A stretch of 64,000 nt of DNA from contig NZ_JAERVJ010000001.1 in assembly GCF_016745395.1 (NCBI RefSeq), forward strand, positions 868,001-932,000, read 5' to 3'. Of this stretch, positions 42,339 through 58,497 are shown piece by piece (the first letter of the stretch is position 1; each line of letters begins with the position of its first letter). Made by a program: the position numbers and the translations under genes. The stretch comes from Methylocystis sp. Sn-Cys. Lineage in GTDB: Bacteria; Pseudomonadota; Alphaproteobacteria; Rhizobiales; Beijerinckiaceae. The notes beneath the pieces were generated by a model that saw nothing but the letters and a program-made list of their open reading frames with translations, did no database searches and had not been told where the DNA came from.

Positions 42339-42842
42339 TTACTTGAGCTGATCCGCTACCTTGTCGATCGCCGCCTTCGCGCAGGCTTCGTCCTTCTCTC
42401 CGCCGGGCGCGCCGGAGACGCCGACGGCGCCGATCACTGTGTCGCCGGTCTTGATCGGCAGGGCTCCCTGGGCGGCGACAATATTGGCGAGATGCACTTG
42501 CCCCGAGGTCGGATTGTCCTTCACGCGCTGCGCAAATTCGCCGGAGGGGATGCGGAAGGTGCGCGAGGTATAGGCCTTCCGGAGGCTATTCTCGATCGTG
42601 TGAGGCGAGGTGCTGTCTCCGCGAAGCGAGATCAGCGGCTGGCCTTCGAGACCAACGACAGTCACCGACACATGATAGCCCTGCTGCAGGCAGGCGTCAT
42701 AGGCGGTTTGAGCAATGCTCAAGGCGATGGGCGCCGACAGCGCCTTGAGCGAGAGAAGCTCGGCGCGCGCCGGCAAAGCGAAGGGCGCGCCGAGAGAAGC
42801 GCCAAGCGTCGCGACGGCGGCGAAAGTGGCAAGAAACCTCAT
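42339..42842 (-). CDS. secreted GlcG/HbpS family protein
   Basis: 167 aa with a Sec signal peptide ending ARAE. The GlcG/HbpS fold is shown by ALSIAQTAYDACLQQGYHVSV, AYTSRTFRIPSGEF, VAAQGALPIKTGDTVIGAVG and SGAPGGEKDEACAKAAID. HbpS binds haem or small cofactors in sensory and redox settings. It is divergent from an XRE-cupin regulator across a perfect palindrome. Confidence 0.9.
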   Translation of the reverse strand: MRFLATFAAVATLGASLGAPFALPARAELLSLKALSAPIALSIAQTAYDACLQQGYHVSVTVVGLEGQPLISLRGDSTSPHTIENSLRKAYTSRTFRIPSGEFAQRVKDNPTSGQVHLANIVAAQGALPIKTGDTVIGAVGVSGAPGGEKDEACAKAAIDKVADQLK

Positions 42843-43030: not shown

Positions 43031-43666
43031 ATGATAGGGTCTATAGACATGAACAAGCATGGTCAGAAGCGCGAGGCCGCAGCGGAAAGCGCCCTTGCCG
43101 CGCTTGTCGCCGATCGATTGAAGCAACTCGTCACGCTCGAGGGCCGTTCCTTCAAGAGGCTTGCGCAACTGACCGGCATAGATCCTTCCGAGCTTTTGCG
43201 GATCGAGGCGGGGGCGGTGGCGCCGACGATCAACCATCTCTGGCGCATCGCCAATGCGCTGGGGGTTCCCTTCGGTCGTCTCGTCGCCTCGGCGGGACGC
43301 CGCGGCGTCCTGGTTTTGCGCAGCGACTCGCGTCAGAGCGTCACGTCGCAGGACGGAAATTTCAGCACGCGTCCTCTCTTTCCCTATGACGGGCTCCGTA
43401 GCGCGGAGTTCTACGAGATCACGCTCGCGCCCCACCATAGCCAGCATGTCGAGGCGCATGCGCCCGGCACCAAAGAGAATCTGGTCGTCGCCAAGGGGGC
43501 GATCGAAATCGTCGTCGGCCGTGAGAGCCCGCAAATTCTGCAGGAGGGCGACGCCATCGATTTCCTGGCCGATGTGCCGCACCTGTATCGGAACCTCGGC
43601 GACGCGCCTGCGACGCTTTATCTAGTCATGTCCTATGAATTTTGCCCTCCAGACGGGGCGCTTTGA
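43031..43666 (+). CDS. XRE regulator with C-terminal cupin
   Basis: 211 aa. An HTH (FKRLAQLTGIDPSELLRIEA, NHLWRIANALGVPF) is followed by a cupin domain (YEITLAPHHSQHVEAHAPGT, LVVAKGAIEIVVG, DFLADVPHLYRNL), the layout of PuuR/SutR-like regulators. The ligand is unknown. Either 43031 or the in-frame ATG 43049 could start it; a GGAGAC element favours the former loosely. Confidence 0.88.
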   Translation: MIGSIDMNKHGQKREAAAESALAALVADRLKQLVTLEGRSFKRLAQLTGIDPSELLRIEAGAVAPTINHLWRIANALGVPFGRLVASAGRRGVLVLRSDSRQSVTSQDGNFSTRPLFPYDGLRSAEFYEITLAPHHSQHVEAHAPGTKENLVVAKGAIEIVVGRESPQILQEGDAIDFLADVPHLYRNLGDAPATLYLVMSYEFCPPDGAL

Positions 43667-44138
43667 GACAATTCGATCAGTTTGGGCCGGCCCCGCAAGG
43701 GCTGCTCGCATGCACATATCTTCATGTCGCCGCCCTCGTCATGGCCGGGCTTTTCCCGGCCGCTCACGCCACGCAAACAACGGCGAATGCCGGTCATAGG
43801 TCGGCGTGACCGCAAAGCCTGTACCGAGCTTTATCCATAGCGATAACGCGTCTCGTTGAGCTGCGCCCGGGGCGGGGGGCGCCGGGACAAGCTCGCCTAT
43901 GACGGTCCTCGAAATGTGCGACTCCCTTCGCCCTCGGGGCAGGGGGGCCTCTCAATTGCTATAGCGAAACCCGAAGGCTAGCCGTCAAAACCGCCAGGCC
44001 CGCCGCGCCAAAAAATCTGGATTTAAAACATACAATATAGGTAGACTTCATAGTTTAGGTAGGCTAGCTTTCGCTCATTCGGGACACGCCTATCCCAAAA
44101 GCGAATCCGCAGAGAGCCATTGGATCGAGGCAGAAGAA
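43667..44138. other. gene-free leader of the nine-gene operon
   Basis: Contains a family D repeat fragment (about 43735-43770) and then an AT-rich stretch from about 44015. In it TAGGTAG occurs twice (44038-44044 and 44056-44062), 18 bp apart on the same face. That could be a regulator site or promoter element for 44139. No gene seen. Confidence 0.45.
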
Positions 44139-46490
44139 ATGAAGAAAACTGCGAAGAAAGCCTACCTTGCGATGCTCATGAGCGTCTCCCTCGCCGCGCT
44201 TGCCGTGGCGGCGGAGGTGAAGCCCAATGATTCCGCCGCGGCGGCGCCCGAAGCTCCGAAGGCCGCAAGCCCCTCATCTAAGCCGCATTGGTCGTGGCTG
44301 CCCGTCCAGGCGCAATTCGTTCCTGTCGTGAAGCAGAAGGAGTGGGTGCGCTCGCCCCTCGACGCCTTTGTGCTCGCGAAGATCGAAGGCAAGAGCCTCG
44401 CGCCCTCCAAGGACGCCGACCGCGCCACCTTCATTCGGCGCGCCACGCTCGACGCCTGGGGCATTGTCCCGGCGCCGGAGGAGGTCGACGCCTTTGTGAA
44501 CGACACCGCGTCAGACGCCTATGAGAAGCTTGTCGACCGCCTTCTCGCCTCGCCGCGTTACGGCGAGCGTCAGGCGCGCCTGTGGCTCGATCTCGCGCGC
44601 TATGCGGATTCGACCGGCTTCCAGAACGACAATACGCGGCCCAATCTCTTCCGCTACCGCGACTATGTCATCAAGGCGTTCAATGAGGACAAGCCTTATT
44701 CGCGTTTCATTCAGGAGCAGATTGCCGGCGACGAGATTGCCCCGAACGATCAGGACGTCCTCGTCGCAACCGGCTTTCTCGCGGGATATCCCGACAACAG
44801 CAATTCGCGCGACCTCGTGCAGCGCAAGTATCAGATCACCACGGACATCGTCGATACGATCGGCCAGGCCGTTCTCGGCACGACGGTGAGCTGCGCCCGC
44901 TGCCATAATCACAAGAGCGACAAGTTCACCCAGAAAGATTATTTCTCGCTGCAGGCATTCTTCGCCAATACCGCCTTCCAGGAGAAGGCGCCCGCGAAGA
45001 AAGGCGAGCAGGAGCTCGCCTATGAAAAGGCGCAGGCGATTTACGACGAGGCCACGAAGGATATTCGGGCCAAGCAGAAAGCCATTATCGATGGCGTTTA
45101 CGAAGCCGCGCTCAAATATCACAAAGAGCGCTACCTCACCGACAGCCGCGAATCCATCTTCAAGCCGAAGGACCAGTGGAACGCGCTCGATCGCTGGGTC
45201 AATCATCGTCTCGACGCGGTGACAGACCGGCCGCAGCTCGCCGCCTATCTGCGTTACGCCGCCGAGGATAAATCGGCGCCCGAGCACAGCCCAGAGGCAG
45301 TGCAGAAATACGAGGAGTATCAGAAGCTCCAGCGTGAGCTGCAAAAATTCGCCGATAAAAAGCCCGCGCGCGGCGCCAACACCTTCACGACGGCGACGGA
45401 ACTCGGCCATCCGGATGCGCCGCCAACCTATGTCCTGTTCGGCGGCAATCACGAGAAGCCTCTGGAAGAAGTCCAGCCCGCTTTCCCCGAGGCGATCACC
45501 GGCGAGAAGCCCGACATCAAGCCGACGGCGACATCGTCGGGCCGTCGCACGGCTCTGGCGAGCTGGCTGGCGAGCGCGACGAATCCGCTCACCGCGCGCG
45601 TCTTCGTCAATCGCGTCTGGAACCAGTATTTCGGCAAGGGCATTGTCGGCACGGTCTCCGATTTCGGCAAGGCTGGCGACAAGCCGACCAATCCGGAGCT
45701 GCTGGATTACCTTGCCGATCATTTCGTGAAGGACGGTTGGAGCGTCAAAAAGCTCCATCGCGACATTCTGCTCTCGTCGACCTATCGCCAATCCTCCGAT
45801 TTCCGCGAGGATATCGCCAAGGCCGATCCGGAGAACAAGCTCCTCGCCGTCTTCCCGCGCAAGCGTCTCGAGGCCGAAGAGATTCGCGACTCTGTTCTCG
45901 TCGCGTCGGGTAAGCTCAATGAAGAAATCGGCGGCCCGAGCGTCTTTCCGCCGCTTCCCGCCAATGTGAGCGGCGGCAACAACTTCAACGCGGACCCGGC
46001 CTGGACGACGTCGAAAGACCCGAAGGACCATGCGCGCCGTAGCCTCTACATCTTCACGCGTCGCAGTCTGCCCTATCCGCTGCTCGAAACCTTCGACATG
46101 GCGAACGCGCAGCAGATTCACAGCAAGCGCGACGTGACGACGACGCCGCTGCAAGCGCTGACGCTCTACAACAGCGATCAGTTCTTCCAGTGGTCGCAGG
46201 CGCTCGCCGGCCGCGTGATCAATGAAGCCGGTCCGGACGAGACGGCGCGCATCGACCGCCTTTATCAAATCCTCTTCTCGCGCAAAGCGACCGACGCCGA
46301 GAAGGATGCGCTGCGCGCCTTCCTCGATCAGCACCAGAAGACGATCGCGCAAAAGGCCGAAGACGGAAAGCTCGCCATCGCTTTGCCGATCGGCGCCAAG
46401 GAAAAGCCTTCCGATCCGCTGCGCGCCTCGGCCTTCGTCGATCTCGTGCACACGGTCATGAACTCCAACGACTTCGTCTATCGCTTCTGA
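44139..46490 (+). CDS. exported DUF1549/DUF1553 (planctomycete-type) haem protein
   Basis: 783 aa with a Sec signal peptide (AYLAMLMSVSLAALAVAAE). DUF1549 occupies about residues 70-270 (SPLDAFVLAKIEGKSLAPS, YGERQARLWLDLARYADSTG) and includes one haem-type motif C252-A-R-C255-H256 followed by NHK. DUF1553 follows at about 465-740 (NPLTARVFVNRVWNQYFGKG, FPRKRLEAEEIRDSVL, SDQFFQWSQALAGRV). These domains are paired in hundreds of Planctomycete proteins and are rare in alphaproteobacteria. Biochemical role unknown; periplasmic. First gene of a tight operon whose second gene is DUF1501, its usual partner. Confidence 0.93.
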   Translation: MKKTAKKAYLAMLMSVSLAALAVAAEVKPNDSAAAAPEAPKAASPSSKPHWSWLPVQAQFVPVVKQKEWVRSPLDAFVLAKIEGKSLAPSKDADRATFIRRATLDAWGIVPAPEEVDAFVNDTASDAYEKLVDRLLASPRYGERQARLWLDLARYADSTGFQNDNTRPNLFRYRDYVIKAFNEDKPYSRFIQEQIAGDEIAPNDQDVLVATGFLAGYPDNSNSRDLVQRKYQITTDIVDTIGQAVLGTTVSCARCHNHKSDKFTQKDYFSLQAFFANTAFQEKAPAKKGEQELAYEKAQAIYDEATKDIRAKQKAIIDGVYEAALKYHKERYLTDSRESIFKPKDQWNALDRWVNHRLDAVTDRPQLAAYLRYAAEDKSAPEHSPEAVQKYEEYQKLQRELQKFADKKPARGANTFTTATELGHPDAPPTYVLFGGNHEKPLEEVQPAFPEAITGEKPDIKPTATSSGRRTALASWLASATNPLTARVFVNRVWNQYFGKGIVGTVSDFGKAGDKPTNPELLDYLADHFVKDGWSVKKLHRDILLSSTYRQSSDFREDIAKADPENKLLAVFPRKRLEAEEIRDSVLVASGKLNEEIGGPSVFPPLPANVSGGNNFNADPAWTTSKDPKDHARRSLYIFTRRSLPYPLLETFDMANAQQIHSKRDVTTTPLQALTLYNSDQFFQWSQALAGRVINEAGPDETARIDRLYQILFSRKATDAEKDALRAFLDQHQKTIAQKAEDGKLAIALPIGAKEKPSDPLRASAFVDLVHTVMNSNDFVYRF

Positions 46491-46512
46491 TCCTTCGAAA
46501 GGAACATTCGTC

Positions 46513-47967
46513 ATGTTGATCAAGACCTCTCGTCGCGACTGGTTGCGCGGCGCCACTTACGGTCTCGGCGGCTACGCCGTCAGCGGCATGATGCCGGGGG
46601 GCGGCTGGTTCGGCGCTCCAGCGGCCAACGCCGCCAGCTTCGTCGATCCGCTGGCCCCCAAGGCCCCGCATTTCGAGCCGAAAGTGAAGTCGGTGATCTG
46701 GCTTCACATGGATGGCGCGCCCTCGACGCTCGATCTCTTCGACTACAAGCCCGAGCTCGTGCGCCTCGCCGGGCAGGAGGTGCCGGAATCCTTCCTCAAG
46801 GGCATCAAGACTTCGACGCAGGGCGGCGTCGGCAAGCTCTTCGCCACCAACCGCACCTGGAAGCAATATGGCCAGAGCGGCGCCTGGTTCTCCGACTGGG
46901 TTCCAAACATCGCGCAGCACGCCGATAAGCTCACCTTCATCAAATCGAGCGTCACCGTCGGCGCCACGCATGATATTTCGATCCTGAAGCTCAACACCGG
47001 CGACCTCTCGCCGGGCCGCCCGTCGCTCGGCGCCTGGGTCACTTATGCGCTTGGCTCCGCCAATCCCGATCTTCCGCCCTATGTCGTGCTCTACAGCGGC
47101 AAGCGCGAACCGCGCGCGGGCTCGGTGAACTGGAGTTCCGGCTTCCTTCCGGCTGTCTATCAGGGCACGGCCTTCCGTCCCGGCGCGCAGCCGATCCTGC
47201 ATCAGGCGCCGCCGGATCTCATCGGCTTGCAGCAGCAGCGCGAGAGCCTCGACCTCTTGAAGCAGCTCAACGATCTGCGCGGCGCAGCGCATCCGGAGGA
47301 CACCGAGCTCGAAGCGCGCACGCGCTCTTATGATCTCGCCTATCGCATGGAGGCGACGGCGCCGGAGGCTGTCGATCTCTCCAAGGAAACCGAGGCCACC
47401 AAAGCGGCTTATGGCCTCAATGATGACGCCACGAAGGACTACGGCACGGTGCTGCTGCGCGCGCGTCGCCTCGTCGAGCGCGGCGTTCGCTTCATCCAGG
47501 TCGTTTCGGGCCCCATCGAAGGCTCTGGCGTCGGCGACGATTCGAACTGGGACGCGCATCGCCAGCTCGAAAAGAACCACAGCATGCATGTCAAAGCGGT
47601 GGACAAGCCGATCGGCGCTCTCCTCGCCGACCTCGAGGCGCGCGGCCTGCTGGATCAGACGCTCGTCATCTGGACCTCGGAATTCGGCCGCACCTCTTAC
47701 GGCCAGAGTGGCGACGGCCGCGACCATAATCCATGGGGCTATACGCAATGGCTCGCCGGCGGCGGTCTGAAGCACGGTCTCACCTATGGTCAGACCGACG
47801 AGATCGGCTTGAAGACCGTCGAAAATCCGGTGGACACCTACGATGTCCATGCGACGGTTCTTCAGCTTCTCGGCCTGGATCACCTGAAGACGATCTATCT
47901 GCGCGCTGGCCGCGCCGAACGTCCGACCGTCGTCTATGGCAAGGTCGTCAAAGACATCCTCGCCTAG
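46513..47967 (+). CDS. DUF1501 protein, Tat-exported
   Basis: 484 aa. The N-terminus SRRDWLRGATYGLGGYAVSG is a twin-arginine signal. The body has the DUF1501 pattern VIWLHMDGAPSTLDLFDYKP, VGATHDISILKLNTGD, and late LVIWTSEFGRTSYGQSGDGR and DHNPWG, a fold related to alkaline-phosphatase/sulfatase enzymes. Catalysis is unproven for the family. It follows the DUF1549/1553 gene after 22 bp. Tat export suggests it folds, with any cofactor, in the cytosol. Confidence 0.92.
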   Translation: MLIKTSRRDWLRGATYGLGGYAVSGMMPGGGWFGAPAANAASFVDPLAPKAPHFEPKVKSVIWLHMDGAPSTLDLFDYKPELVRLAGQEVPESFLKGIKTSTQGGVGKLFATNRTWKQYGQSGAWFSDWVPNIAQHADKLTFIKSSVTVGATHDISILKLNTGDLSPGRPSLGAWVTYALGSANPDLPPYVVLYSGKREPRAGSVNWSSGFLPAVYQGTAFRPGAQPILHQAPPDLIGLQQQRESLDLLKQLNDLRGAAHPEDTELEARTRSYDLAYRMEATAPEAVDLSKETEATKAAYGLNDDATKDYGTVLLRARRLVERGVRFIQVVSGPIEGSGVGDDSNWDAHRQLEKNHSMHVKAVDKPIGALLADLEARGLLDQTLVIWTSEFGRTSYGQSGDGRDHNPWGYTQWLAGGGLKHGLTYGQTDEIGLKTVENPVDTYDVHATVLQLLGLDHLKTIYLRAGRAERPTVVYGKVVKDILA

Positions 47968-47977
47968 GCGTCGCTGC

Positions 47978-48322
47978 ATGCAGCCTGGTCGCGGATCTTT
48001 CTTTCTCCTCCTTGGACTGGCGGTCTCCGCCAGTCCTTCCACAGCAGGGGCGCAAAGCGCGCCGGCAAAGATCGTCATCGAACACTATGCATTCGGTCCG
48101 CCGGCTCTTAGCGTGAAAGTCGGAGAGAGGATCGAATTCACTAACAACGACCAAATTCCCCATTCGATTGTCCTCGAAGGGCCGAATGGCGAGACCTTTC
48201 GCTCCAAGGAGCAGCTCGACGAGGGCGAGAGCTTCGGCGTCGTGCTCTCAGCGCCAGGCGAAGCGGTTTATTACTGCGGCGTGCACTCGGGGATGCAAGG
48301 GAAAATCACGGTGACCAAATGA
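47978..48322 (+). CDS. periplasmic type-1 copper protein (plastocyanin/amicyanin-like)
   Basis: 114 aa with a signal peptide ending AGAQ. Cu ligands are readable: H62 in QIPHSI, then C100, H103 and M106 in YYCGVHSGMQG. It is a small blue-copper electron carrier. It starts 10 bp after the DUF1501 stop and overlaps the next gene by ATGA. It would accept or pass electrons from the haem proteins of the operon; the actual partner is inferred. Confidence 0.93.
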   Translation: MQPGRGSFFLLLGLAVSASPSTAGAQSAPAKIVIEHYAFGPPALSVKVGERIEFTNNDQIPHSIVLEGPNGETFRSKEQLDEGESFGVVLSAPGEAVYYCGVHSGMQGKITVTK

Positions 48323-48732
48323 TCGAGTTTCTCAAGCTACTGCGTGTCGACTTCCTGATTGCATTCGCCGCGGTTCTCGTGAGCGCGCCCGTCATCGCAG
48401 CGATCGATCTGCGTGACTACGACAATGATCTCATGCGGGACCTCGATAAGACCGTCAAATATTTCGAGCCCGACATCACCGCGAAGAATGCCGATGCGGC
48501 GAAGGAAGATGCGCAGGTGCTGCTCGACGGCTTCAAATATACAGAAGACTATTTCGCCAAGAAGGGCGCCGACGACGCCGTCGAAATCTCGCGCAAGGGC
48601 GTGAAGCTCATCAGCGCCGTATTGGCGAGCGTCGACAGCAACGACTTCGATGCGGCGGCGTCGGCAGCGCGCGGCGCGCCCGACCTCTGCAAATCCTGCC
48701 ACGAGATCTACAAGCCGCGTCTCGCGCGCTAG
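48319..48732 (+). CDS. cytochrome c'-like mono-haem protein
   Basis: 137 aa with an N-terminal signal/anchor helix (VDFLIAFAAVLVSAPVIAA), an all-helical body and a C-terminal haem site C124-K-S-C127-H128 followed by EIYKPR, the position used by class II cytochromes c. Overlaps the copper protein gene by 4 bp, so the two are probably made together as an electron-transfer pair. Confidence 0.88.
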   Translation: MIEFLKLLRVDFLIAFAAVLVSAPVIAAIDLRDYDNDLMRDLDKTVKYFEPDITAKNADAAKEDAQVLLDGFKYTEDYFAKKGADDAVEISRKGVKLISAVLASVDSNDFDAAASAARGAPDLCKSCHEIYKPRLAR

Positions 48733-48761
48733 GCCTTCAATCCAACGCCAAAGGGAACAAC

Positions 48762-49652
48762 ATGACTCGCAAGACGGCTAAGGATTTCAGTCCCGCTGTG
48801 CTGAAGTCTTTCGATCTCTATGTCCATGGGGACATCGACCGGCGCGGCTTCCTCGATCGCGTCGGCAAGCTCGGCCTCGGAGCCGCTGGCGCGGCTGCGA
48901 TGCTCGACGCCCTGAATCCGCGCTTCGCCGAGGCCGAACAAGTCAAGAAAGACGATGCGCGTATTGTCGGGCGGATAGTCGAATATCCCTCGCCCGACGG
49001 CAATGGCGTGGTGAAGGGCTATCTCGTAAAGCCGGCGAATGTCAGCGGGAAGCTGCCTGTCGTTCTCGTCGTCCATGAGAACCGCGGCCTCAATCCGCAC
49101 ATCGAAGATATTGCGCGCCGCTTGGCGCTCGCCAATTTCATCGCTTTTGCGCCGGACGCGCTGGCGCCAGTCGGCGGCTATCCTGGCGATGAAGACAAAG
49201 CGCGCGAACTTTTCCAAAAGCTCGATCAGGAAAAAACACGCAAGGATTTCCTCGCTGCGGTTTCGGCGCTGAAGGCGCTGCCGGACGGCAATGGCAAGGT
49301 CGGCGTGGTCGGCTTCTGCTATGGCGGCGGCGTCTCCAACTTCCTGGCCACCAAAGTTCCGGATTTGGCGGCGTCCGTGCCGTTCTACGGCGGCCAGCCG
49401 AAGGCCGAGGACGTCAAGAACATCAAGGCGCCTCTGCTGCTCCATTACGCCGGCAATGACGATCGCATCAATGCAGGCTGGCCGGCCTATGAGGCGGCGC
49501 TCAAGGACGCGAAGATCTCCTACGAAGCGCACGTCTATCCTGGCGTGCAGCATGGCTTCAACAATGACACCACGCCTCGCTACGACGAGGCTGCGGCGAA
49601 GCTCGCATGGGGGCGCACCATCGATTTCTTCAACGCCCATCTGCGCGGCTGA
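48762..49652 (+). CDS. Tat-exported dienelactone-hydrolase family protein
   Basis: 296 aa. DRRGFLDRVGKLGLGAAGAA (residues 26-45) is a twin-arginine signal after an unusual 25-residue lead. The catalytic set fits DLH: E106 in VVHENRGLN, C186 in GFCYGGG, D233/D234 in AGNDDR and H264 in GVQHGF. It hydrolyses an unknown ester or lactone in the periplasm. The Cys nucleophile, not Ser, marks it as a true DLH relative. Confidence 0.9.
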   Translation: MTRKTAKDFSPAVLKSFDLYVHGDIDRRGFLDRVGKLGLGAAGAAAMLDALNPRFAEAEQVKKDDARIVGRIVEYPSPDGNGVVKGYLVKPANVSGKLPVVLVVHENRGLNPHIEDIARRLALANFIAFAPDALAPVGGYPGDEDKARELFQKLDQEKTRKDFLAAVSALKALPDGNGKVGVVGFCYGGGVSNFLATKVPDLAASVPFYGGQPKAEDVKNIKAPLLLHYAGNDDRINAGWPAYEAALKDAKISYEAHVYPGVQHGFNNDTTPRYDEAAAKLAWGRTIDFFNAHLRG

Positions 49653-49676
49653 CAGAGTTCCCAAAGGATACACGCC

Positions 49677-50213
49677 ATGAAGACACCGCTCTTGTTCCTC
49701 GTCTCTTTTCTCGCCGCCACGACGGCCTTCGCCGCCGACAATCCGGCTGCGCCCGCAGCGGCGGCGCCCGCGGCGACGAATCCGGCGCCTGTCACGCCGG
49801 CAAATGACCCGGCCTATACTTATAAGACGCTTCGCCTCAATCGCGCGGCTTTCGATGCGCTCGCGGCGCGTCCCGGTGAACTGCTCGTTCTCGATGTGCG
49901 GCGGCCCGACGAGCTTACGAAAGTTGGCGGCTTTCCTGTCTATCTCAGCATCCAGACCAAAGAGGTGCAGAATAGTCTCGCCTATATCCCGCGGGATCGG
50001 CTGATCGTCGTCGTTTCAAATCGCGCGCATCGCGCCGGCGCTGTCGGTGACCTGCTCTCGTCTTATGGATTCCGTGTCGTCGGCGCCATCGGCGTGCGCG
50101 ATTATGAAGACGAGGGCGGTTCCCTGTTGAAGATCGCGCCGCCTGCGCAGAGCGCCGCCGCGCCCGGGGCCGCGCAAACCGCTGCCGCGGCTCCTGCTCA
50201 ACAGGCGAAATAG
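49677..50213 (+). CDS. secreted rhodanese-fold protein without catalytic Cys
   Basis: 178 aa with a Sec signal peptide (LLFLVSFLAATTAFAAD) and a Pro/Ala linker. The rhodanese fold is seen in LLVLDVRRPDELTKVGGFP and LAYIPRDRLIVVVSNRAHRA, GFRVVGAIGVRDYEDEGG. At the active loop the Cys is replaced by Ser114 (VVSNRAHR), so sulfur transfer is not expected. It may be a binding or scaffold domain. The tail is Ala/Gln-rich. Similar rhodanese-like proteins accompany PQQ-dependent catabolism genes, though their CxxCW motif is absent here. Confidence 0.85.
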   Translation: MKTPLLFLVSFLAATTAFAADNPAAPAAAAPAATNPAPVTPANDPAYTYKTLRLNRAAFDALAARPGELLVLDVRRPDELTKVGGFPVYLSIQTKEVQNSLAYIPRDRLIVVVSNRAHRAGAVGDLLSSYGFRVVGAIGVRDYEDEGGSLLKIAPPAQSAAAPGAAQTAAAAPAQQAK

Positions 50214-50228
50214 AAAAGGTCCGTCGCG

Positions 50229-50783
50229 ATGAACATCACGCGCGTTATCATTTCGCTATTCCTCGCTTTGTCGGTCAGCGCGGCGCATGCCGCGTTGAAG
50301 CCCGGCGACGCAGCGCCGGACTTCGCCGCGCAAGCGGCGATCGGCGGAAAGGATTTCAACTTCTCCCTCACGGAGGCTTTGAAGAAGGGCCCCGTCGTCC
50401 TCTACTTCTATCCGAAGTCGTTTACGCGCGGCTGCACGATCGAGGCGCATGAATTCGCCGAGAGTTATGACAGTTTCGCTGCGGCGGGCGCGTCCCTCAT
50501 CGGCGTATCGAGCGACACGATCGAGACGCAGCGAGAATTCTCGACGAAAGAGTGCCGGGACAAATTTCCTGTTGCGGCGGACCCGGCCTTCAAGGTGATC
50601 AACGCCTATGACGCCAAGCGGCTCAAACCGAGCGCCTCGGGAGATACGGTCGCCGACCGCATCTCTTATGTGATCCTGCCGGACGGAAAAGTCGCTTTCT
50701 CACTGACCGACTCCAACCCGAGCCGGCATGTCGAGAGCACGCTCGAGTTCGTTCGCAAATGGCGTGAAGAGCACAAGCCGTAA
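50229..50783 (+). CDS. periplasmic peroxiredoxin (AhpC/TSA, Bcp-like)
   Basis: 184 aa with a Sec signal peptide (IISLFLALSVSAAHAA). KPGDAAPDF opens the thioredoxin fold; the peroxidatic Cys is C69 in SFTRGCT (T-x-x-C motif) and C109 in KECRDKF is a candidate resolving Cys. It would protect the haem and copper relay from peroxide in the periplasm. Starts 15 bp after the rhodanese-like gene. Confidence 0.9.
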   Translation: MNITRVIISLFLALSVSAAHAALKPGDAAPDFAAQAAIGGKDFNFSLTEALKKGPVVLYFYPKSFTRGCTIEAHEFAESYDSFAAAGASLIGVSSDTIETQREFSTKECRDKFPVAADPAFKVINAYDAKRLKPSASGDTVADRISYVILPDGKVAFSLTDSNPSRHVESTLEFVRKWREEHKP

Positions 50784-50832
50784 GCCGGCTGTTTCCACCA
50801 CTATTACTCATCGCAAATGGAGTTCGTTGCAT

Positions 50833-51330
50833 ATGTCTCGTCTATCACACCGCGCCGCGCCGCTCACGATCGCTGCCGGCGTCATTGCTCTCGTGAGCGT
50901 CGCCGTTGTGGCTGGCGCTCAGGCGCAGAACGCGCCCGCGCCTGGCAAGCAAGCCGTCGAGAACCGCAAGGCCGGTTTCCTGCTGATCGGCAATTACTTC
51001 CGCTATTTCGGCGCTGTTTCGAAGGGGACCGCCCCGTATGACGAAGCTGAGGCGACAAAGCGCGCGTCAAGAATCGCCTTTTTGTCGACGATTGTCGAAG
51101 ACGCCTTTCCCGAAGGCTCGAACCCCGGCGAGCCCGAATCCAAGGCCAAGGCCGACGTCTGGAGCAACCGCGCCGATTTCGACAAGAAGCTGAAAGATTT
51201 CCAGGCGCACGCCCAGGCGCTCGTCGAGGTCAACGCTAAAGAAAAGGGCGCGACCGACGCTTTCAAAGCGGCCGTCGCGGCTCTGGCGGGTGACTGCAAG
51301 GGCTGCCACGAGACCTACAAGGCGAAATAA
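50833..51330 (+). CDS. cytochrome c' (class II)
   Basis: 165 aa with a signal peptide ending AGAQAQ, four-helix pattern (AVENRKAGFLLIGNYFRYFG, KLKDFQAHAQALVEVN) and a C-terminal haem site C155-K-G-C158-H159 ending ETYKAK. This is the canonical cytochrome c' arrangement, binding NO/CO or acting in electron transfer. The start is at MSRLSHRA; an upstream frame is not supported. Confidence 0.92.
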   Translation: MSRLSHRAAPLTIAAGVIALVSVAVVAGAQAQNAPAPGKQAVENRKAGFLLIGNYFRYFGAVSKGTAPYDEAEATKRASRIAFLSTIVEDAFPEGSNPGEPESKAKADVWSNRADFDKKLKDFQAHAQALVEVNAKEKGATDAFKAAVAALAGDCKGCHETYKAK

Positions 51331-51368
51331 CCAAGGTGAAATAAGACTAAAACGGTGACGAGGCCGAT

Positions 51369-52115
51369 ATGACCACCATCGAGAATGACCGTCTCTCTTC
51401 TGCAACGTCGTACAGTGAGACGAGGACTTATCGCAAGGTTTGGGATTGGCCGACACGCTTCTTCCATTGGAGCCTCGTCGCCGCATTCGCCGGAGCCTAT
51501 GCGTCCAACAAGCTCGGCGCGGCCTATTTCTCGCTGCATTTGTTTTTCGGCTATGCGGTTATCGTCCTCGTGACTTTCCGCATCGTCTGGGGTTTTGTCG
51601 GGGCGCGGCATGCGCGTTTCGCCAGTTTTTTAAAAGGGCCGCGCAGCGTGCTGCATTATGTGAGCGCGGTTGGACGCGGTCGACATACACGCTATGTTGG
51701 GCACAACCCGCTCGGCGCATTGATGGTGATCGCGCTGCTGGCGGCGCTCGGCGCGCAGGCGGCTTTCGGGCTCTTCGGCGACGACGAGATATTCAATGCG
51801 GGGCCGCTTGCCCCCCTCGTCAGCAAGGACGCAAGCCTCCTTCTGACCTCACTTCATCGCAAGCTCTTCTACGTCATTCTCGCGGCGGTCTTCGTGCATG
51901 TCGCCGCAGTGCTCGCGCATGTCGTCGTTGCGCGGGAGCCGATCATCCGCGCCATGGTGACGGGAAGCAAACCCAGTGAATTCGTGCCGCCCGAGGAAAC
52001 GCTGCGATCTTCTCGCGGCGCGGTCGCCTTTCTCCTGTTCGTCGCGATCGTCGCCGCTTTCGCGTTCGGCCTGCGCTTTGTGCCCGGGGCGCAGGTCGAT
52101 ATCGCCGCTTTCTGA
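51369..52115 (+). CDS. cytochrome b561 family membrane protein
   Basis: 248 aa with about five hydrophobic helices. WDWPTRFFHWSLVAAFAGAY, SLHLFFGYAVIVLVTFRIVW and HRKLFYVILAAVFVHVAAVL carry the conserved His that hold b haems. Such proteins move electrons between the membrane quinol pool and periplasmic c cytochromes. It is the last gene of the nine-gene operon and is followed by a strong terminator, so it probably links the relay to the respiratory chain. Confidence 0.93.
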   Translation: MTTIENDRLSSATSYSETRTYRKVWDWPTRFFHWSLVAAFAGAYASNKLGAAYFSLHLFFGYAVIVLVTFRIVWGFVGARHARFASFLKGPRSVLHYVSAVGRGRHTRYVGHNPLGALMVIALLAALGAQAAFGLFGDDEIFNAGPLAPLVSKDASLLLTSLHRKLFYVILAAVFVHVAAVLAHVVVAREPIIRAMVTGSKPSEFVPPEETLRSSRGAVAFLLFVAIVAAFAFGLRFVPGAQVDIAAF

Positions 52116-52184: not shown

Positions 52185-52224
52185 GGCCGCGATCTCTCAC
52201 GAGATCGCGGCCGATTTTGTTTTG
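52185..52224 (+). terminator. strong terminator of the nine-gene operon
   Basis: GGCCGCGATCTC (52185-52196), loop TCAC, GAGATCGCGGCC (52201-52212), then GATTTTGTTTT. Confidence 0.93.
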
Positions 52225-52371: not shown

Positions 52372-54840
52372 ATGCGCCGTAACGGCTTCGCGTTTCGTAG
52401 AATGCTTCTTTCCAGCGCCGCACTCGCGCCGCTGTCTCTTGGCGCGCTTGCGACGCTGGTCGCCGACGCTGCCCGCGCCCAGGATGCGCAGGTGGAGGAG
52501 GTAAAGGTCACGGCGCGTCAGCGCGAGGAGAAAGCGCAGGATGTGCCGTTGCCGGTCAGCGTGGTCGGCGCCAAGACGCAGGAGAGAGAGCGTCTCGAGC
52601 GCTTGCAGGACTTCGCGCAGAAAGTCCCGAATTTCGTGCCGTCGATCAACAATCCGCGCACCTCGGCGATGTCGATTCGCGGTATTTCCGGCATCTCTGG
52701 CGGCGCAGACGGTTCCGAGTCGGCGGTGGGCCTCATCGTCGATAACGTCTTCTACACGCATGTCGGCTTCCAATGGGCCGACTTCGTCGATTTGCAATCG
52801 CTCGAGGTTGCGCGCGGCCCGCAAGGCACGCTGCTCGGCAAAAACACGACGGTGGGCGCCGTCGTGATCCGCACGCAATTGCCGTCCTTTGCCCGATCTG
52901 CGACGTCCGAGACGACCATCGGCGCCTACAACCGCGTCACGCAAAAGCTCAACGTCACCGGTCCGATCATCGACGACAAGCTCGCCTATCGTGTGACGCT
53001 CTATTACGATCGTGGCGACGGCTGGATCCATAACCAGTTCAACAGCCAGAAGCTCCTGGACAACAATCGCTGGGGCATTCGCGGGCAGTTGCTCTATGTC
53101 GGCGAGAACTTTACCGATCGCCTGATTTTCGACCGATTGCGTTCCGATGAGTACAACAACTACAGCGGCGTCGTCGGAAACTCCTTCCCGCTATGGGCAA
53201 ATGGCGCTCTGGCGAGGACCTATGCGCAAAATCTCTGGACGCGCCTGCGCACGCCGATCCTCACATTCGATCCCTACCAGCCTTATCTCACGCGACTGGG
53301 CAAGCTCGATCAGCGCACGACCGGCGTCTCGAACGAGTTCAATTACACTTTGGGAGAGAATACGCTGACCGGCGTCTCGGCCTGGCGTCAATTCATTCTG
53401 CATCCCAACAACACGACCGGCAATCAGCTCACCGACATCAGCGCGAACGCCTATGACGTGAAGGTCGATCAATTCTCGCACGAAACGCGCCTTGCTTCGC
53501 CGCAGGGCCAGGAATTCGAATGGACGATCGGCAACTACAATCTCTACGAACATGTCTGGTCGTATAACCACGTCGATTTCGGTTCACAGGCGAGCCAGTG
53601 GTTCGCCAACAACATCAACGCCAATCCCTATAATCTCTGGGGCCTCTCCTATCGCAACGACGGCGTCGCGCGCACTTTCAGCACGGCTGCTTTCGGCCAG
53701 GGAACTTGGCACATCGACGAAAAATGGGCGCTGACGGCGGGGTTGCGCGACACTTACGAGATACGCGAGGGCTCGGATTTCGGCTGGATTCAGGGGCTTT
53801 CCAGCCTCAGCCAGCTCGCGGCGGTCAGGCAGGCGACCGGCGGCACGACGTTCTTCGACACGGGCGGACAGCAGAAACGCGTCAATTCGATCTCGGGACT
53901 TTTCAATCCCTCCTATCGCATCAACGAAAACGTCATGACCTATGGCTCGGTGGCGCGCGGCGAAAAATCCGGCGCGGTCAACACCCAGGCCTTGCCGATC
54001 CTCAACAGCGCCGGCGTTTTCCAAGGGTGGCAGCCCGTCATCACCAAGCCGGAAGTCTCATGGGACTATGAAATCGGCGTCAAGACAAACTGGTTCGACA
54101 ACCGGCTCATCCTCAACGCCAACGCCTATTGGAATGATATCTACAATTTCCAGTCGGTGCTCGTGAACACGGATTATACCGACGTCTCCGGCGTGCCGAT
54201 TCGCAAGAACTATCTCGGCAACATCGGTCATGTGCGTCTGCGCGGTTTCGAAATCGACGGACGCTGGAGCCCGATCGATCGCCTGTGGCTGACCTTCTCG
54301 GGCGCTTATACCAACGCCCAATACGTCGATTTCCCCAAGGCCTCGCCATCGCCGGAATTCCTGTGGCCGGCCTCGAGCAATATCGGCGGCGTGGCGGCGC
54401 CGGCCTATATGAGCCTCTCGGGCCACAGCATCACCGGCGGCGTTTCGGGAAATAACCCCGTTGCGCCGTTCTCCTTCAATCTCGGCTTCAATCACGAATA
54501 TCCGCTTGGCGCGATCTTCCGCGACGTCGGCTATACGGGGCCGGTGACGCTCTTCAGCTATTCCAACGCCGCATGGCGGGCGCGCACGCAGCTTTCCAAT
54601 CCGCTGTCCATCTATCCGTTGTTCATGCCAGCCTACGCGATCTGGAACGCTGGCGTCGGTCTGAAGACTGACGACGATGTCTACAGTTTCAATCTCTGGG
54701 TCCGCAATCTTCTCGACGAGCGCATCATCGTCGCACAAACGATCGCGTCTACGGGCCTTTCACCCTCGCCGTCCACCGTCACCTTCGACGCATACAACCC
54801 ACGCACCTTCGGCGCGACGCTGCGCGTCAAGCTCTATTGA
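52372..54840 (+). CDS. TonB-dependent outer-membrane receptor
   Basis: 822 aa. A signal peptide ends near AARAQ; the TonB-box-like VEEVKVTA (41-48) leads into a plug (LPVSVVGAKTQ, AMSIRGISG, VARGPQGTLLGKNTTVGAV) and a 22-strand-type barrel closing TFGATLRVKLY. It imports a specific large or metal-bound ligand using TonB energy. No N-terminal signalling domain, so no sigma/anti-sigma control. The ligand is not readable. It precedes a porin-like gene and a full tonB-exbB-exbD set. Confidence 0.94.
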   Translation: MRRNGFAFRRMLLSSAALAPLSLGALATLVADAARAQDAQVEEVKVTARQREEKAQDVPLPVSVVGAKTQERERLERLQDFAQKVPNFVPSINNPRTSAMSIRGISGISGGADGSESAVGLIVDNVFYTHVGFQWADFVDLQSLEVARGPQGTLLGKNTTVGAVVIRTQLPSFARSATSETTIGAYNRVTQKLNVTGPIIDDKLAYRVTLYYDRGDGWIHNQFNSQKLLDNNRWGIRGQLLYVGENFTDRLIFDRLRSDEYNNYSGVVGNSFPLWANGALARTYAQNLWTRLRTPILTFDPYQPYLTRLGKLDQRTTGVSNEFNYTLGENTLTGVSAWRQFILHPNNTTGNQLTDISANAYDVKVDQFSHETRLASPQGQEFEWTIGNYNLYEHVWSYNHVDFGSQASQWFANNINANPYNLWGLSYRNDGVARTFSTAAFGQGTWHIDEKWALTAGLRDTYEIREGSDFGWIQGLSSLSQLAAVRQATGGTTFFDTGGQQKRVNSISGLFNPSYRINENVMTYGSVARGEKSGAVNTQALPILNSAGVFQGWQPVITKPEVSWDYEIGVKTNWFDNRLILNANAYWNDIYNFQSVLVNTDYTDVSGVPIRKNYLGNIGHVRLRGFEIDGRWSPIDRLWLTFSGAYTNAQYVDFPKASPSPEFLWPASSNIGGVAAPAYMSLSGHSITGGVSGNNPVAPFSFNLGFNHEYPLGAIFRDVGYTGPVTLFSYSNAAWRARTQLSNPLSIYPLFMPAYAIWNAGVGLKTDDDVYSFNLWVRNLLDERIIVAQTIASTGLSPSPSTVTFDAYNPRTFGATLRVKLY

Positions 54841-54877: not shown

Positions 54878-55627
54878 ATGAAGAGAATTACCGTCTTCCA
54901 TCTGGCCGCTATGACGATCTCGCTGCTCGCAGGATCGGCGGCGGCGGCCGATCTGCCGAGCGCCAAAGCGCCTCCACCGCCCCCGCCGCCGCCGCCGGTG
55001 TTTAGCTGGCAGGGCGGCTATGTCGGCGTTTACGCGGGCGCAATTCTCGGCGAGGGCGCATTCACGCTCGTCAATCAAACGCCCCTGCGCGGCTCGGCTT
55101 TCGTTGGTGGTGGAACGATCGGCTATAATTGGCAATGGACCGATACGATCGTTCTCGGCGCAGAAGCCGATTTCGGCTACCGCGGCAGCATTCAGCCTGG
55201 TCGCACGGGTTGGAGCTATCCCGGCCGGACCGACTCGGGGGTGCTCGGGACCCTGCGTGGCAGAGTGGGCTACGCCTTCGCGCCGCGCTGGCTCGCTTAT
55301 GTCAGCGCCGGCTTGGCTTACGGAACGAATTTCATCTCGAATAATTTTTCGAGCCTTCCGCCTTTCACCTATGGGCAGTTGAGCTCGGGGCCGACGCTGC
55401 GTCCCGGTTGGACCGCCGGCGCCGGCTTCGAATATGCCTGGAACGACAAAATCTCGATCAAGGGCGAATATCTCTATGCCTGGCTTGCCGAGACAGGCGT
55501 CGCCTACAACACTAATCGCGGCGTCCTCAATGCGAATGTTTCGAGCGCCGGACATGTGGTGCGCGCTGGAATAAACTATCATTTCTCCGCTGGCCCGCTC
55601 GCGGCGCCGCCGGCGCTCGTCAAATAG
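54878..55627 (+). CDS. Omp25/31-like outer-membrane protein with polyproline linker
   Basis: 249 aa. Signal peptide ends AAAADLP, then a run of nine prolines before the barrel (WQGGYVGVYAGAILG, GTIGYNWQWTD, GTLRGRVGYAFAP, and GINYHFSAG near the end). It lies 37 bp after the receptor gene, so it is co-transcribed. It may be a passive channel or surface partner of the receptor; this is inferred. Confidence 0.88.
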   Translation: MKRITVFHLAAMTISLLAGSAAAADLPSAKAPPPPPPPPPVFSWQGGYVGVYAGAILGEGAFTLVNQTPLRGSAFVGGGTIGYNWQWTDTIVLGAEADFGYRGSIQPGRTGWSYPGRTDSGVLGTLRGRVGYAFAPRWLAYVSAGLAYGTNFISNNFSSLPPFTYGQLSSGPTLRPGWTAGAGFEYAWNDKISIKGEYLYAWLAETGVAYNTNRGVLNANVSSAGHVVRAGINYHFSAGPLAAPPALVK

Positions 55628-55810: not shown

Positions 55811-56581
55811 ATGGCGACAGCCGCCGCGCCGAATTTCGACTCCGCCGACGCCGCCGGCGATGATTTCCTCGTTGATCCGCAGGGTGTGCAGGGATTGCTG
55901 CAGCCGAGTGGGTTGCGGCCGAATTATCCCGCCCAATTGGGGGCGGCCGCCCTCTACGCTCTTCTGCTCGGCCTGATCGTCACCCTGTCTTTCAAAGCCG
56001 CGGAGGCGCCCGTCGAAGAGCAGCAAGTGATCGAACTTGCGCCCGTGCCGGCCGAGGAGCCGCCCCCGCCAGAGGACACGCCGCCGCCGCCCGAGGAGCT
56101 CGTGCTCCCTGACGAGCCGCCGCCGCCCCCGCCGGTCTTGGACCCGATTGCGCCGATCGAGCCGCCGAAGCCGATCGAGAAACCCGCCATCAAGCCCAAG
56201 CTCGAGAAGAAAATCGAAAAGCCGGTCGCCGCGAAGCCGGCGGCCGCCCGCGCGCCGACGGCCGCGAGAACGGATGCGCCTGCTGTTCGTGCGCCGGCGG
56301 CTCCCTCGGGTGCAACACCCTCGGCGATCGCCAACCAGTTCCATGCTTGCATGCAGCGCGCCGCCGCCAACGCCTATCCGGATTCGCAGGCGCCGCGCAC
56401 CGCGCATATCGGCTACCGCGCGACCTTCGGCGCCACGGGATCGATGACCTCTTTCTCGATCACGCCTTCGGGTAATGGCGCTTTCGATGCGGTCGCCAAC
56501 CGGCTCGGGGGCCGTTGCGGCTCCGTCGCCGCGCCCGGCAAGCCGGTCTCGCTTTCGGGCTCCTTCACCTTCAGCCCCTGA
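55811..56581 (+). CDS. tonB: TonB-like energy transducer
   Basis: 256 aa. One inner-membrane helix (about residues 44-61: GAAALYALLLGLIVTLSF), a long Pro/Glu then Lys/Pro region (residues 78-135) spanning the periplasm, and a C-terminal domain (IANQFHACMQRAAANAY to SGSFTFSP). The C-terminal domain has two Cys (CMQR, GRCGS), not usual in TonB, which could form a disulfide. It heads a tonB-exbB-exbD operon behind its own terminator, so it likely serves the adjacent receptor. Confidence 0.88.
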   Translation: MATAAAPNFDSADAAGDDFLVDPQGVQGLLQPSGLRPNYPAQLGAAALYALLLGLIVTLSFKAAEAPVEEQQVIELAPVPAEEPPPPEDTPPPPEELVLPDEPPPPPPVLDPIAPIEPPKPIEKPAIKPKLEKKIEKPVAAKPAAARAPTAARTDAPAVRAPAAPSGATPSAIANQFHACMQRAAANAYPDSQAPRTAHIGYRATFGATGSMTSFSITPSGNGAFDAVANRLGGRCGSVAAPGKPVSLSGSFTFSP

Positions 56582-56606: not shown

Positions 56607-57330
<724 letters not shown>

Positions 57331-57350
<20 letters not shown>

Positions 57351-57786
57351 GCACGATTCGGAATTCGATTCGCAGCCTATCGCCGACATCAATGTCACGC
57401 CGCTCGTCGACGTCATGCTGGTGCTGCTCATCGTCTTCATGGTGGCGGCGCCCTTGATGACCTCGGGCGTGCCTGTCGATCTGCCCAAGACGGCGGCCAA
57501 GCAGCTCAACGACCAACAGCCGCCGATCGTCGTCAGCGTCGACGCCAACGGCTCCTATTTCGTCGACAAGAAAGAGGCGACCGGCGTCGAAGGCCTGCTC
57601 GCCGTGCTCAAGGAGAACAGCGAGAACAACAAGGACCGCCGCATCCATCTGCGCGCAGACAAGGCCGTCGCCTATGGCAAGGTCGCCGAAGCGATGGGCG
57701 TGATCAACGCCGCCGGCTATGTGAAGGTCGCTCTCGTCTCCGAGGGCGCTGGATCGGGCGCCAGGGCCGCTTCGGCGGCGCAATAG
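57331..57786 (+). CDS. exbD: ExbD proton-channel subunit
   Basis: 151 aa with one helix containing D27 in NVTPLVDVMLVLLIVFMVAA, the proton-bearing Asp of the family, then a periplasmic domain (PVDLPKTAAKQLN, RIHLRADKAVAYGKV). It ends at a strong terminator. Confidence 0.94.
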
Positions 57787-58062: not shown

Positions 58063-58497
58063 ATGCTCTCGAATAAAGCGAAATACGGGCTGAAGGCGCT
58101 CATCCATCTCGCCAAGGCGGACGACAAATGTCTGGCCGGCGATATCGCGACCGCCAACAACATCCCCCGAAAATTCCTGGACGCTATCCTGGTCGAGCTG
58201 CGCAACGCCGGCATCCTCAACAGCCGGAAGGGCAAGGGCGGCGGCTATCACCTGGCCCGCCCGGCGGAGAAGATCACCGTCGGCCAGATCATCCGCATCC
58301 TCGACGGCCCGCTCGCGCCGATCGCCTGCGCGAGCCGCACGGCCTATCAGCGCTGCGCCGACTGCCCCGACGAAGACGCCTGCGCGATCCGCGACATCAT
58401 GCTGGACGTGCGCGATTCGATCGCGCTCATTCTGGACCGCACCAGCATTGCGTCGCTGCGCAATCGCGGCAATCGAGAGACGCAGATTTTGCGGTGA
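58063..58497 (+). CDS. Rrf2-family regulator with four cysteines
   Basis: 144 aa. The HTH is in LAGDIATANNIPRKFLDAIL with the wing RKGKGGGYHLARP. C89, C98, C101 and C107 (C-x8-C-x2-C-x5-C) could hold an iron-sulfur cluster, as in IscR, NsrR and RirA. It follows exbD across a terminator and may control the TonB cluster in response to iron or redox state; this is an inference. The start is at MLSNKAKYG; an upstream frame is spurious. Confidence 0.9.
   Translation: MLSNKAKYGLKALIHLAKADDKCLAGDIATANNIPRKFLDAILVELRNAGILNSRKGKGGGYHLARPAEKITVGQIIRILDGPLAPIACASRTAYQRCADCPDEDACAIRDIMLDVRDSIALILDRTSIASLRNRGNRETQILR

Follow-up and report, generated by a model that had tools for sequence, protein, structure and literature searches.

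The orphan families PSD1/PSCyt2 and DUF1501 have many members in Planctomycetes and related bacteria. Proteins made in response to a lack of sulfur contain little of it. The sulfate-starvation loci with which comparison is made here are Sbp-CysTWA; Ssu, Tau and Msu/Sfn; and sulfate-ester systems, treated in part in two sources (PMC12581299, PMC13352529). This report concerns a block of nine genes, g1 to g9 (positions 44139-52115), that is headed by a PSCyt2-PSD1 gene and a DUF1501 gene and lies in a 64,000-nucleotide stretch of DNA from Methylocystis sp. Sn-Cys (contig NZ_JAERVJ010000001.1), hereafter called the window. The genome contains a PmoA/AmoA-family gene, and the host is therefore a methanotroph. 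The locus probably encodes a set of outer-membrane and periplasmic proteins that is induced when sulfur runs short and gets sulfur from organic compounds.

With the PSCyt2-PSD1 and DUF1501 pairs of Planctomycetes, Verrucomicrobia and Acidobacteria, the locus shares the domains and their order, the adjacency of the two genes in most loci and a conserved CxxCH motif, but the PSCyt2-PSD1 proteins (PSDs) of those phyla are at most 43% identical to it and have a normal methionine plus cysteine (Met+Cys) content, among the best 80 of 345 relatives. It resembles the sulfate-starvation loci in its Met/Cys-poor proteins, an antioxidant protein and a TonB receptor and, in its relatives, in sulfate/sulfonate-type transporters and sigma-54 sites. 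Unlike those loci, g1-g9 include no recognised flavin monooxygenase or formylglycine sulfatase; they encode instead a haem c protein and a protein of predicted alkaline phosphatase (AlkP) fold, both with export-type N-termini.

The nine open reading frames (ORFs) are all on the plus strand and form a real operon-like block that codes mostly for exported proteins, with gaps from g1 to g9 of 22, 10, -4, 29, 24, 15, 49 and 38 nt, values that assume the likely starts of g3 at 47978 and of g8 at 50833. The first, g1 (44139-46490), carries PSCyt2 (DUF1549) and PSD1 (DUF1553) domains (269.8 and 320.8 bits) and a single haem c site with the sequence CARCH; since the two Pfam domains occur together and a DUF1501 gene is adjacent, it belongs to the PSCyt2-PSD1/DUF1501 pair family. 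It is followed by g2 (46513-47967), a DUF1501 protein with a twin-arginine translocation (Tat)-like N-terminus; g3 (47978-48322), a plastocyanin-like cupredoxin (PF00127/PF13473); g4 (48319-48732), a cytochrome c'-like protein with a C-terminal CxxCH; g5 (48762-49652), a dienelactone-hydrolase (DLH)-like protein of YghX type with a twin-arginine-type N-terminus (PF01738, 173.5 bits; NF041440, 426 bits, under the cut-off of 460); g6 (49677-50213), a rhodanese-like protein with no Cys and no Met after the start; g7 (50229-50783), an AhpC/TSA peroxiredoxin with a signal peptide (PF00578, 97 bits); g8 (50833-51330), a cytochrome c' (PF01322, 105 bits); and g9 (51369-52115), a cytochrome b561 (PF01292, 84 bits). 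Pfam backs seven of the nine assignments (g1, g2, g3, g5, g7, g8 and g9); g4 and g6 had no Pfam match, and their labels were read from the sequence. The arrangement and gene identities given in an initial annotation of this DNA, which had gaps of -4 to 49 nt, stand, those of g4 and g6 on sequence features. What that annotation missed is the TonB receptor, which travels with the block, and its energiser, as well as the low Met+Cys content, the genes for sulfur transport that lie nearby in relatives and the predicted AlkP/sulfatase fold of the DUF1501 protein. On the plus strand beyond g9 come, in order, the TonB-dependent receptor g10 (52372-54840; PF00593 and PF07715), the outer-membrane beta-barrel protein g11 (54878-55627; PF13505), a TonB-like protein (55811-56581) named by position and Pro-rich sequence only, with no Pfam match, ExbB (56607-57350; PF01618), ExbD (57331-57786; PF02472) and an Rrf2-family regulator (58063-58497; PF02082, 120 bits).

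Met+Cys content of g1-g9 is 1.04% (27 of 2605 amino acids) and falls to 0.93% (24 of 2589) once the starts are refined. The comparison values are 2.45% for 314 background genes, which were called in 400 kb of this genome with a home-made ORF caller and include some false genes, and 2.32% for 32 putative exported genes picked with a rough hydropathy criterion. Among 176 overlapping runs of nine genes in this genome the lowest value is 1.21%, and a random draw of nine exported genes gives 1.04% or less with a frequency of 4e-5. When the receptor, g11, the TonB-like protein, ExbB and ExbD are included, the 14-gene total is 0.95%; sulfur-poor proteins, as in sulfate-starvation-induced loci, were found with the exception of g3, g4 and ExbD. 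As a positive control, the matched 307-amino-acid parts of both Sbp-type sulfate-binding proteins of the genome contain zero Met and zero Cys (the ORF caller took the wrong strand at the second Sbp gene, which was read by coordinates), and the remainder of one sulfate operon, its subunits named by eye, has 0.35, 1.35 and 0.73%.

The depletion extends to proteobacterial homologs, which were compared without the window itself and without rows of fewer than 350 aligned amino acids. PSD averages 0.60-0.73% Met+Cys in the three main proteobacterial groups versus 2.51% in 55 others, and DUF1501 0.75-0.96% versus 3.97% in 47 others. Row by row, 34 proteobacterial PSDs at 1.16% or less stand against 55 others at 1.06% or more (Mann-Whitney p 3e-15), and 31 proteobacterial DUF1501 proteins at 1.46% or less against 47 others at 2.28% or more (p 1e-13); both p values are overstated, since the rows are related and one is duplicated (L018 and L025 are one contig, which enters the alpha-methanotroph counts and the 34- and 31-row sets twice). 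A small group of other gammaproteobacteria (three rows each) has 0.99% for PSD and 1.45% for DUF1501, including an undepleted Saccharobesus copy that was omitted from the p values and from the residue comparisons below. Flank genes differ far less (2.14 versus 2.77%). In Sapientia, a 938-amino-acid TonB receptor has 0.11% Met+Cys, and Sbp, ExbB and the TonB-like protein have 0%.

No residues are oxidised more readily than Met and Cys, and a peroxiredoxin is part of the block. The depletion could then reflect resistance to oxidation in a system that makes peroxide, and not sulfur scarcity, and the mildly lower histidine of the proteobacterial clade (ratios 0.81 and 0.76) fits that idea. Yet tryptophan and tyrosine are not depleted in this clade (ratios 0.92 and 1.13 in PSD, 1.40 and 1.45 in DUF1501); some inner-membrane parts have no Met+Cys at all (the ExbB of L041, Sapientia, and one SsuC-like permease of L034, Aquabacterium), others being ordinary, such as the L041 CysT at 2.46%; the sulfate-binding proteins of the genome are equally poor; and the Saccharobesus pair keeps normal Met+Cys. 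Selection against oxidation is thus a very improbable cause. The composition ties the locus to sulfur scarcity.

Direct support for that tie comes from the neighbours of the module in Burkholderiales. Six of the eight loci have Sbp and/or SsuABC-like genes no more than about 10 kb away (L034, L036, L037, L038, L041, L043), the other two being contigs of 8 and 4 kb. In Aquabacterium the module has as neighbours Sbp (509 bits, cut-off 288), an SsuA/SsuC-like ATP-binding cassette set, which falls below the equivalog cut-offs and is thus of a sulfonate, taurine or nitrate type, together with a sigma-54 activator. Near the Sapientia module are Sbp and CysT, both above the cut-offs of their best models. 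Among the whole-operon alphaproteobacterial, the Methylococcaceae and the other gammaproteobacterial loci examined, no Sbp or SsuABC-like genes were seen. The main proteins are poor in sulfur and sulfur-uptake genes stand beside the blocks of relatives; the block therefore probably aids the acquisition of organic sulfur when sulfate is scarce.

Sigma-54 sites were sought upstream of PSD in 30 loci (L045 was left out). All eight Burkholderiales/Saccharophagus loci covered, seven of them from Burkholderiales, have a site, with at most one mismatch in seven and with two in L044, while random 450-bp stretches of those loci gave a site at that one-mismatch threshold in 13 of 800 cases; L018 has two-mismatch matches only, and 21 loci have none. 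Within 450 bp upstream of g1 in the window no -24/-12 site of the kind expected for SfnR-type control was found. In methanotrophs the motif GGTAGACTT, at no more than one mismatch, occurs in 9 of 19 upstream regions versus 3.1% of mononucleotide-shuffled ones; in loci of Methylocystis and Methylosinus it precedes g1 by about 100-240 nt, and the window's copy is TAGGTAGACTTCAT (44038-44051, plus strand). This conserved motif is perhaps a promoter or operator.

An independent instance came from a DUF1501 profile search (E<=1e-100) of 398 evenly drawn Pseudomonadota genomes, which matched only the window's genome and one other, G751, whose sequence was new to the locus set. G751 repeats the depletion (1.03 and 1.04% in the pair), the core module and the sigma-54 site, which lies 91 nt upstream of PSD with one mismatch. 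Its other Met+Cys values are 4.72% for the c'-like protein, 1.00% for the peroxiredoxin, 4.61% for a di-haem cytochrome c and 0.30% for an SMP-30-like protein; a cytochrome c' and two TonB receptors (0.30 and 0.84%) are also present. Homologs of g5, g6 and g9 were not seen in the 36 kb around it.

The two lead proteins offer a candidate catalytic unit. In g1, whose structure model has a predicted local distance difference test score (pLDDT) of 89.6, the predicted haem site (C252, C255, H256) and H258 are kept in 57 of 57 rows. The predicted fold of DUF1501 is that of the alkaline phosphatases and sulfatases. The protein differs from members of that superfamily such as PafA, NPP and the S1 sulfatases in that g2, the one sequence scanned, has no match to the formylglycine motif C/S-x-P-x-R, which sets it apart from S1 sulfatases, and in that the nucleophile-like T148, picked by eye, is found in only 30 of 52 rows. 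D347, H349, E390 and H405 are present in all 52 rows and H446 in 51; E390 and H405 look like an unusual residue set. Elsewhere in the block, the aligned rows of g4 keep a C-terminal haem-type motif, either CxxCH or the CDxACH variant, and the GCT/GCN cysteine of g7 is kept in its 29 rows.

From composition and context I infer induction by sulfur starvation and the following route. The g10 receptor, powered by TonB-ExbB-ExbD, would import organically bound sulfur, most likely as a sulfate ester or sulfonate, to the periplasm, where DUF1501 and its haem c partner PSD would jointly break the C-O-S or C-S bond, yielding sulfite or sulfate. In the carbon moiety the DLH-like g5 would hydrolyse an ester or lactone, electrons would exit to quinone via the c'-type cytochromes (plus the cupredoxin in Methylocystis) and b561, the peroxiredoxin would remove peroxide, and released sulfate would enter by Sbp-CysTWA. 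A study of P. aeruginosa describes a peroxiredoxin that is strongly induced by sulfur starvation (PMC12581299). A bolder and rather doubtful extension is that PSD (haem c) and DUF1501 (AlkP fold, no formylglycine motif) may constitute an undescribed class of periplasmic haem-dependent desulfurising enzyme, recruited by Proteobacteria from an Acidobacteria or Planctomycetes-Verrucomicrobia-Chlamydiae (PVC) relative for sulfur scavenging, and that the many pairs of Planctomycetes, Verrucomicrobia and Acidobacteria may do related chemistry on sulfated or recalcitrant polymers.

The same enzymes might instead oxidise a carbohydrate or humic-type compound in the periplasm for carbon or energy, which is close to the oxidative reaction that the initial annotation proposed and resembles what has been suggested for verrucomicrobial PSCyt proteins; in freshwater members of that phylum, PSCyt genes encode carbohydrate-binding modules and have sulfatases as neighbours (PMC5615132). 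The DLH-like g5 fits such a function, as do an SMP-30/gluconolactonase-like protein in L034, with homologs in L035, L036, L039 and L176, and a relative on a Saccharobesus litoralis plasmid (L103, NZ_CP026605.1), where PSD, DUF1501, a hypothetical protein, cytochrome c, cytochrome b and a TonB receptor lie within a pectin-degradation island that has glycoside hydrolases or lyases next to the receptor. The Saccharobesus PSD belongs to the proteobacterial clade, grouped with Saccharophagus on a long branch, and this copy is a natural control: in a pectin context, PSD (2.05% Met+Cys), DUF1501 (2.28%) and neighbours with normal values are not depleted. The only relative in a clear polysaccharide context is thus the undepleted one, and carbon oxidation leaves unexplained why most of the locus is depleted in Met+Cys and why relatives have sulfur transporters and sigma-54 sites. 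Methanotrophs, moreover, rarely use sugars. A function in carbon supply is unlikely.

Metal acquisition or release would also employ a TonB receptor: an iron siderophore, haem or copper chelate would be taken up and its metal freed by a PSD-DUF1501 redox step. The best NCBIfam model for g10 is of siderophore type, although below cut-off; HbpS-like (42339-42842, minus strand; PF03928) and Rrf2-family genes are nearby, the window's genus has the cupredoxin, and TonB receptors of the genome that are unlinked to PSD can be as Met+Cys-poor, one beside iron-type transport genes and one of a His-rich type (by eye). A metal system is nevertheless quite improbable, given that the cupredoxin is not a core member, that relatives have sulfate/sulfonate-type transporters and that the depletion is just as strong in the PSD, DUF1501, DLH and rhodanese-like proteins; nor would an AlkP-fold hydrolase be expected in siderophore release.

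Several observations weigh against sulfur scavenging itself. Sbp, SsuABC-like and CysT queries found no match in the 64-kb window (tblastn, E<=1e-10), and no Sbp/Ssu homolog was seen in the examined stretches of seven other Methylocystis loci with the whole operon or, with Sbp and Ssu permease/binding queries, in the 36 kb around G751. GGTAGACTT is not enriched genome-wide (4 matches versus 4 in the reversed control), and no 12-mer in common with the sulfate operon was seen for this candidate promoter region. Homologs of g4 (mean 3.38%) and g3 (3.68%) are undepleted, as are the di-haem cytochromes of relatives (about 3-4%) and ExbD (2.65%); Sapientia CysT (2.46%) and one L034 SsuC-like permease (1.74%) are not depleted either, and histidine too is somewhat lower in the proteobacterial clade. 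A low value is not unique to sulfur genes, as 34 of 314 background genes are below 1.04%, and among the genome's 26 TonB receptors the three lowest in Met+Cys are unlinked to PSD, the three PSD-linked ones ranking fourth to sixth. From the Saccharobesus copy it is clear that the family can also work in a setting unrelated to sulfur. I know of no sulfatase that requires a haem partner.

PF07587 was found in 8 of 61 genomes searched, all eight among 37 of the window's genus; PSD1 was not found in the other 29, several of which are incomplete. Among 397 genomes drawn from the order it occurs in one, the window's own. All eight PSD1-carrying genus genomes have the nine genes in the same order, so that the recurrence on which the initial annotation had staked its proposal is borne out in seven further genomes, and a g10-homologous receptor follows the block in the window and six of the seven others, the examined L018 stretch being the one in which it was not found. 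A PSD alignment scan of the genome collection kept the best 80 of 345 relatives. Of these, 25 are 56-77% identical and come from methanotrophs (Methylosinus, Methylocapsa, and metagenome-assembled genomes (MAGs) of Methylococcaceae, Methylocystaceae and Beijerinckiaceae), Burkholderiales, Saccharophagus and one gammaproteobacterial MAG, and the other 55, at 43% or less, are mostly from Acidobacteria, Verrucomicrobia and Planctomycetes. Only the proteobacterial loci among these 80 yielded homologs of g3-g9, many of the relatives' loci being short MAG contigs in which absences mean little. In a PSD tree of 58 rows the proteobacterial rows form one clade (support 100/100) beside three Acidobacteria/Verrucomicrobia rows, which agrees with the earlier description of a planctomycete-type pair in an alphaproteobacterium. 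The copper theme of that description is not supported: in the loci examined from Methylosinus, Methylocapsa, Methylococcaceae, Burkholderiales and gammaproteobacteria, no cupredoxin was found to separate DUF1501 from g4, and g3 is specific to the genus among these loci. The rest of the proposed redox set (haem c, c'-type cytochrome, b561, peroxiredoxin) recurs, and an electron route from the block to quinone is therefore plausible.

Cultured carriers of the proteobacterial version include Methylosinus sporium, Methylocapsa acidiphila, Sapientia aquatica and a Saccharophagus isolate. With a compact version of strong sulfur signature in cultured strains, the function of these families becomes directly testable, and the proposed role, if true, would point to a sulfur-acquisition route in methanotrophs. 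Methanotroph sulfur nutrition in sulfate-poor waters and bogs has received little study.

Upstream of the block lies g0 (43031-43666, plus strand), a regulator with an XRE-type helix-turn-helix and a cupin domain (Pfam HTH_3, Cupin_2), homologs of which occur near the module in several methanotroph loci; the HbpS-like gene lies near it and likewise recurs beside the module in several of them. Within 44139-52115 the plus strand showed no sigma-70-like consensus promoter. The strong terminator reported at 52185 is present as a hairpin (52185-52212, plus strand; 12-pair stem with 9 G-C, T tail), but the scan as a whole was at chance level (13 found versus 12.0 expected), and three weaker terminator-like sites lie inside the block on the same strand (50647, 51599, 52015).

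A second PSD-DUF1501 pair lies on another contig of the window's genome. The paralogous pair G000:C15 (L011:1748-14066) is accompanied by two TonB receptors and by a 245-amino-acid membrane-like and a 141-amino-acid protein, which have no Pfam match and no Met (after the start) or Cys. In a related species of the genus, a paralog pair (L016:22-9317) stands with SsuABC-like genes, an amidase of 0.23% Met+Cys, an NF006131 flavoprotein (1052 bits, AprA/FrdA-like), which I take to be AsfA-like, and a metallo-beta-lactamase (MBL)-fold protein. This MBL-fold family, of about 490-530 amino acids, recurs near the module in L028, L036, L039 and L177, and its members in L028, L039 and L177 (part) have 0% Met+Cys. 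Finally, in G000:C17:84001-120000 (L158, L159) three genes for TonB receptors lie close to an SsuA-family gene; one of these receptors has 0.41% Met+Cys, and the region also encodes a 178-amino-acid protein that looks like a flavin mononucleotide (FMN) reductase and has 0.56%.

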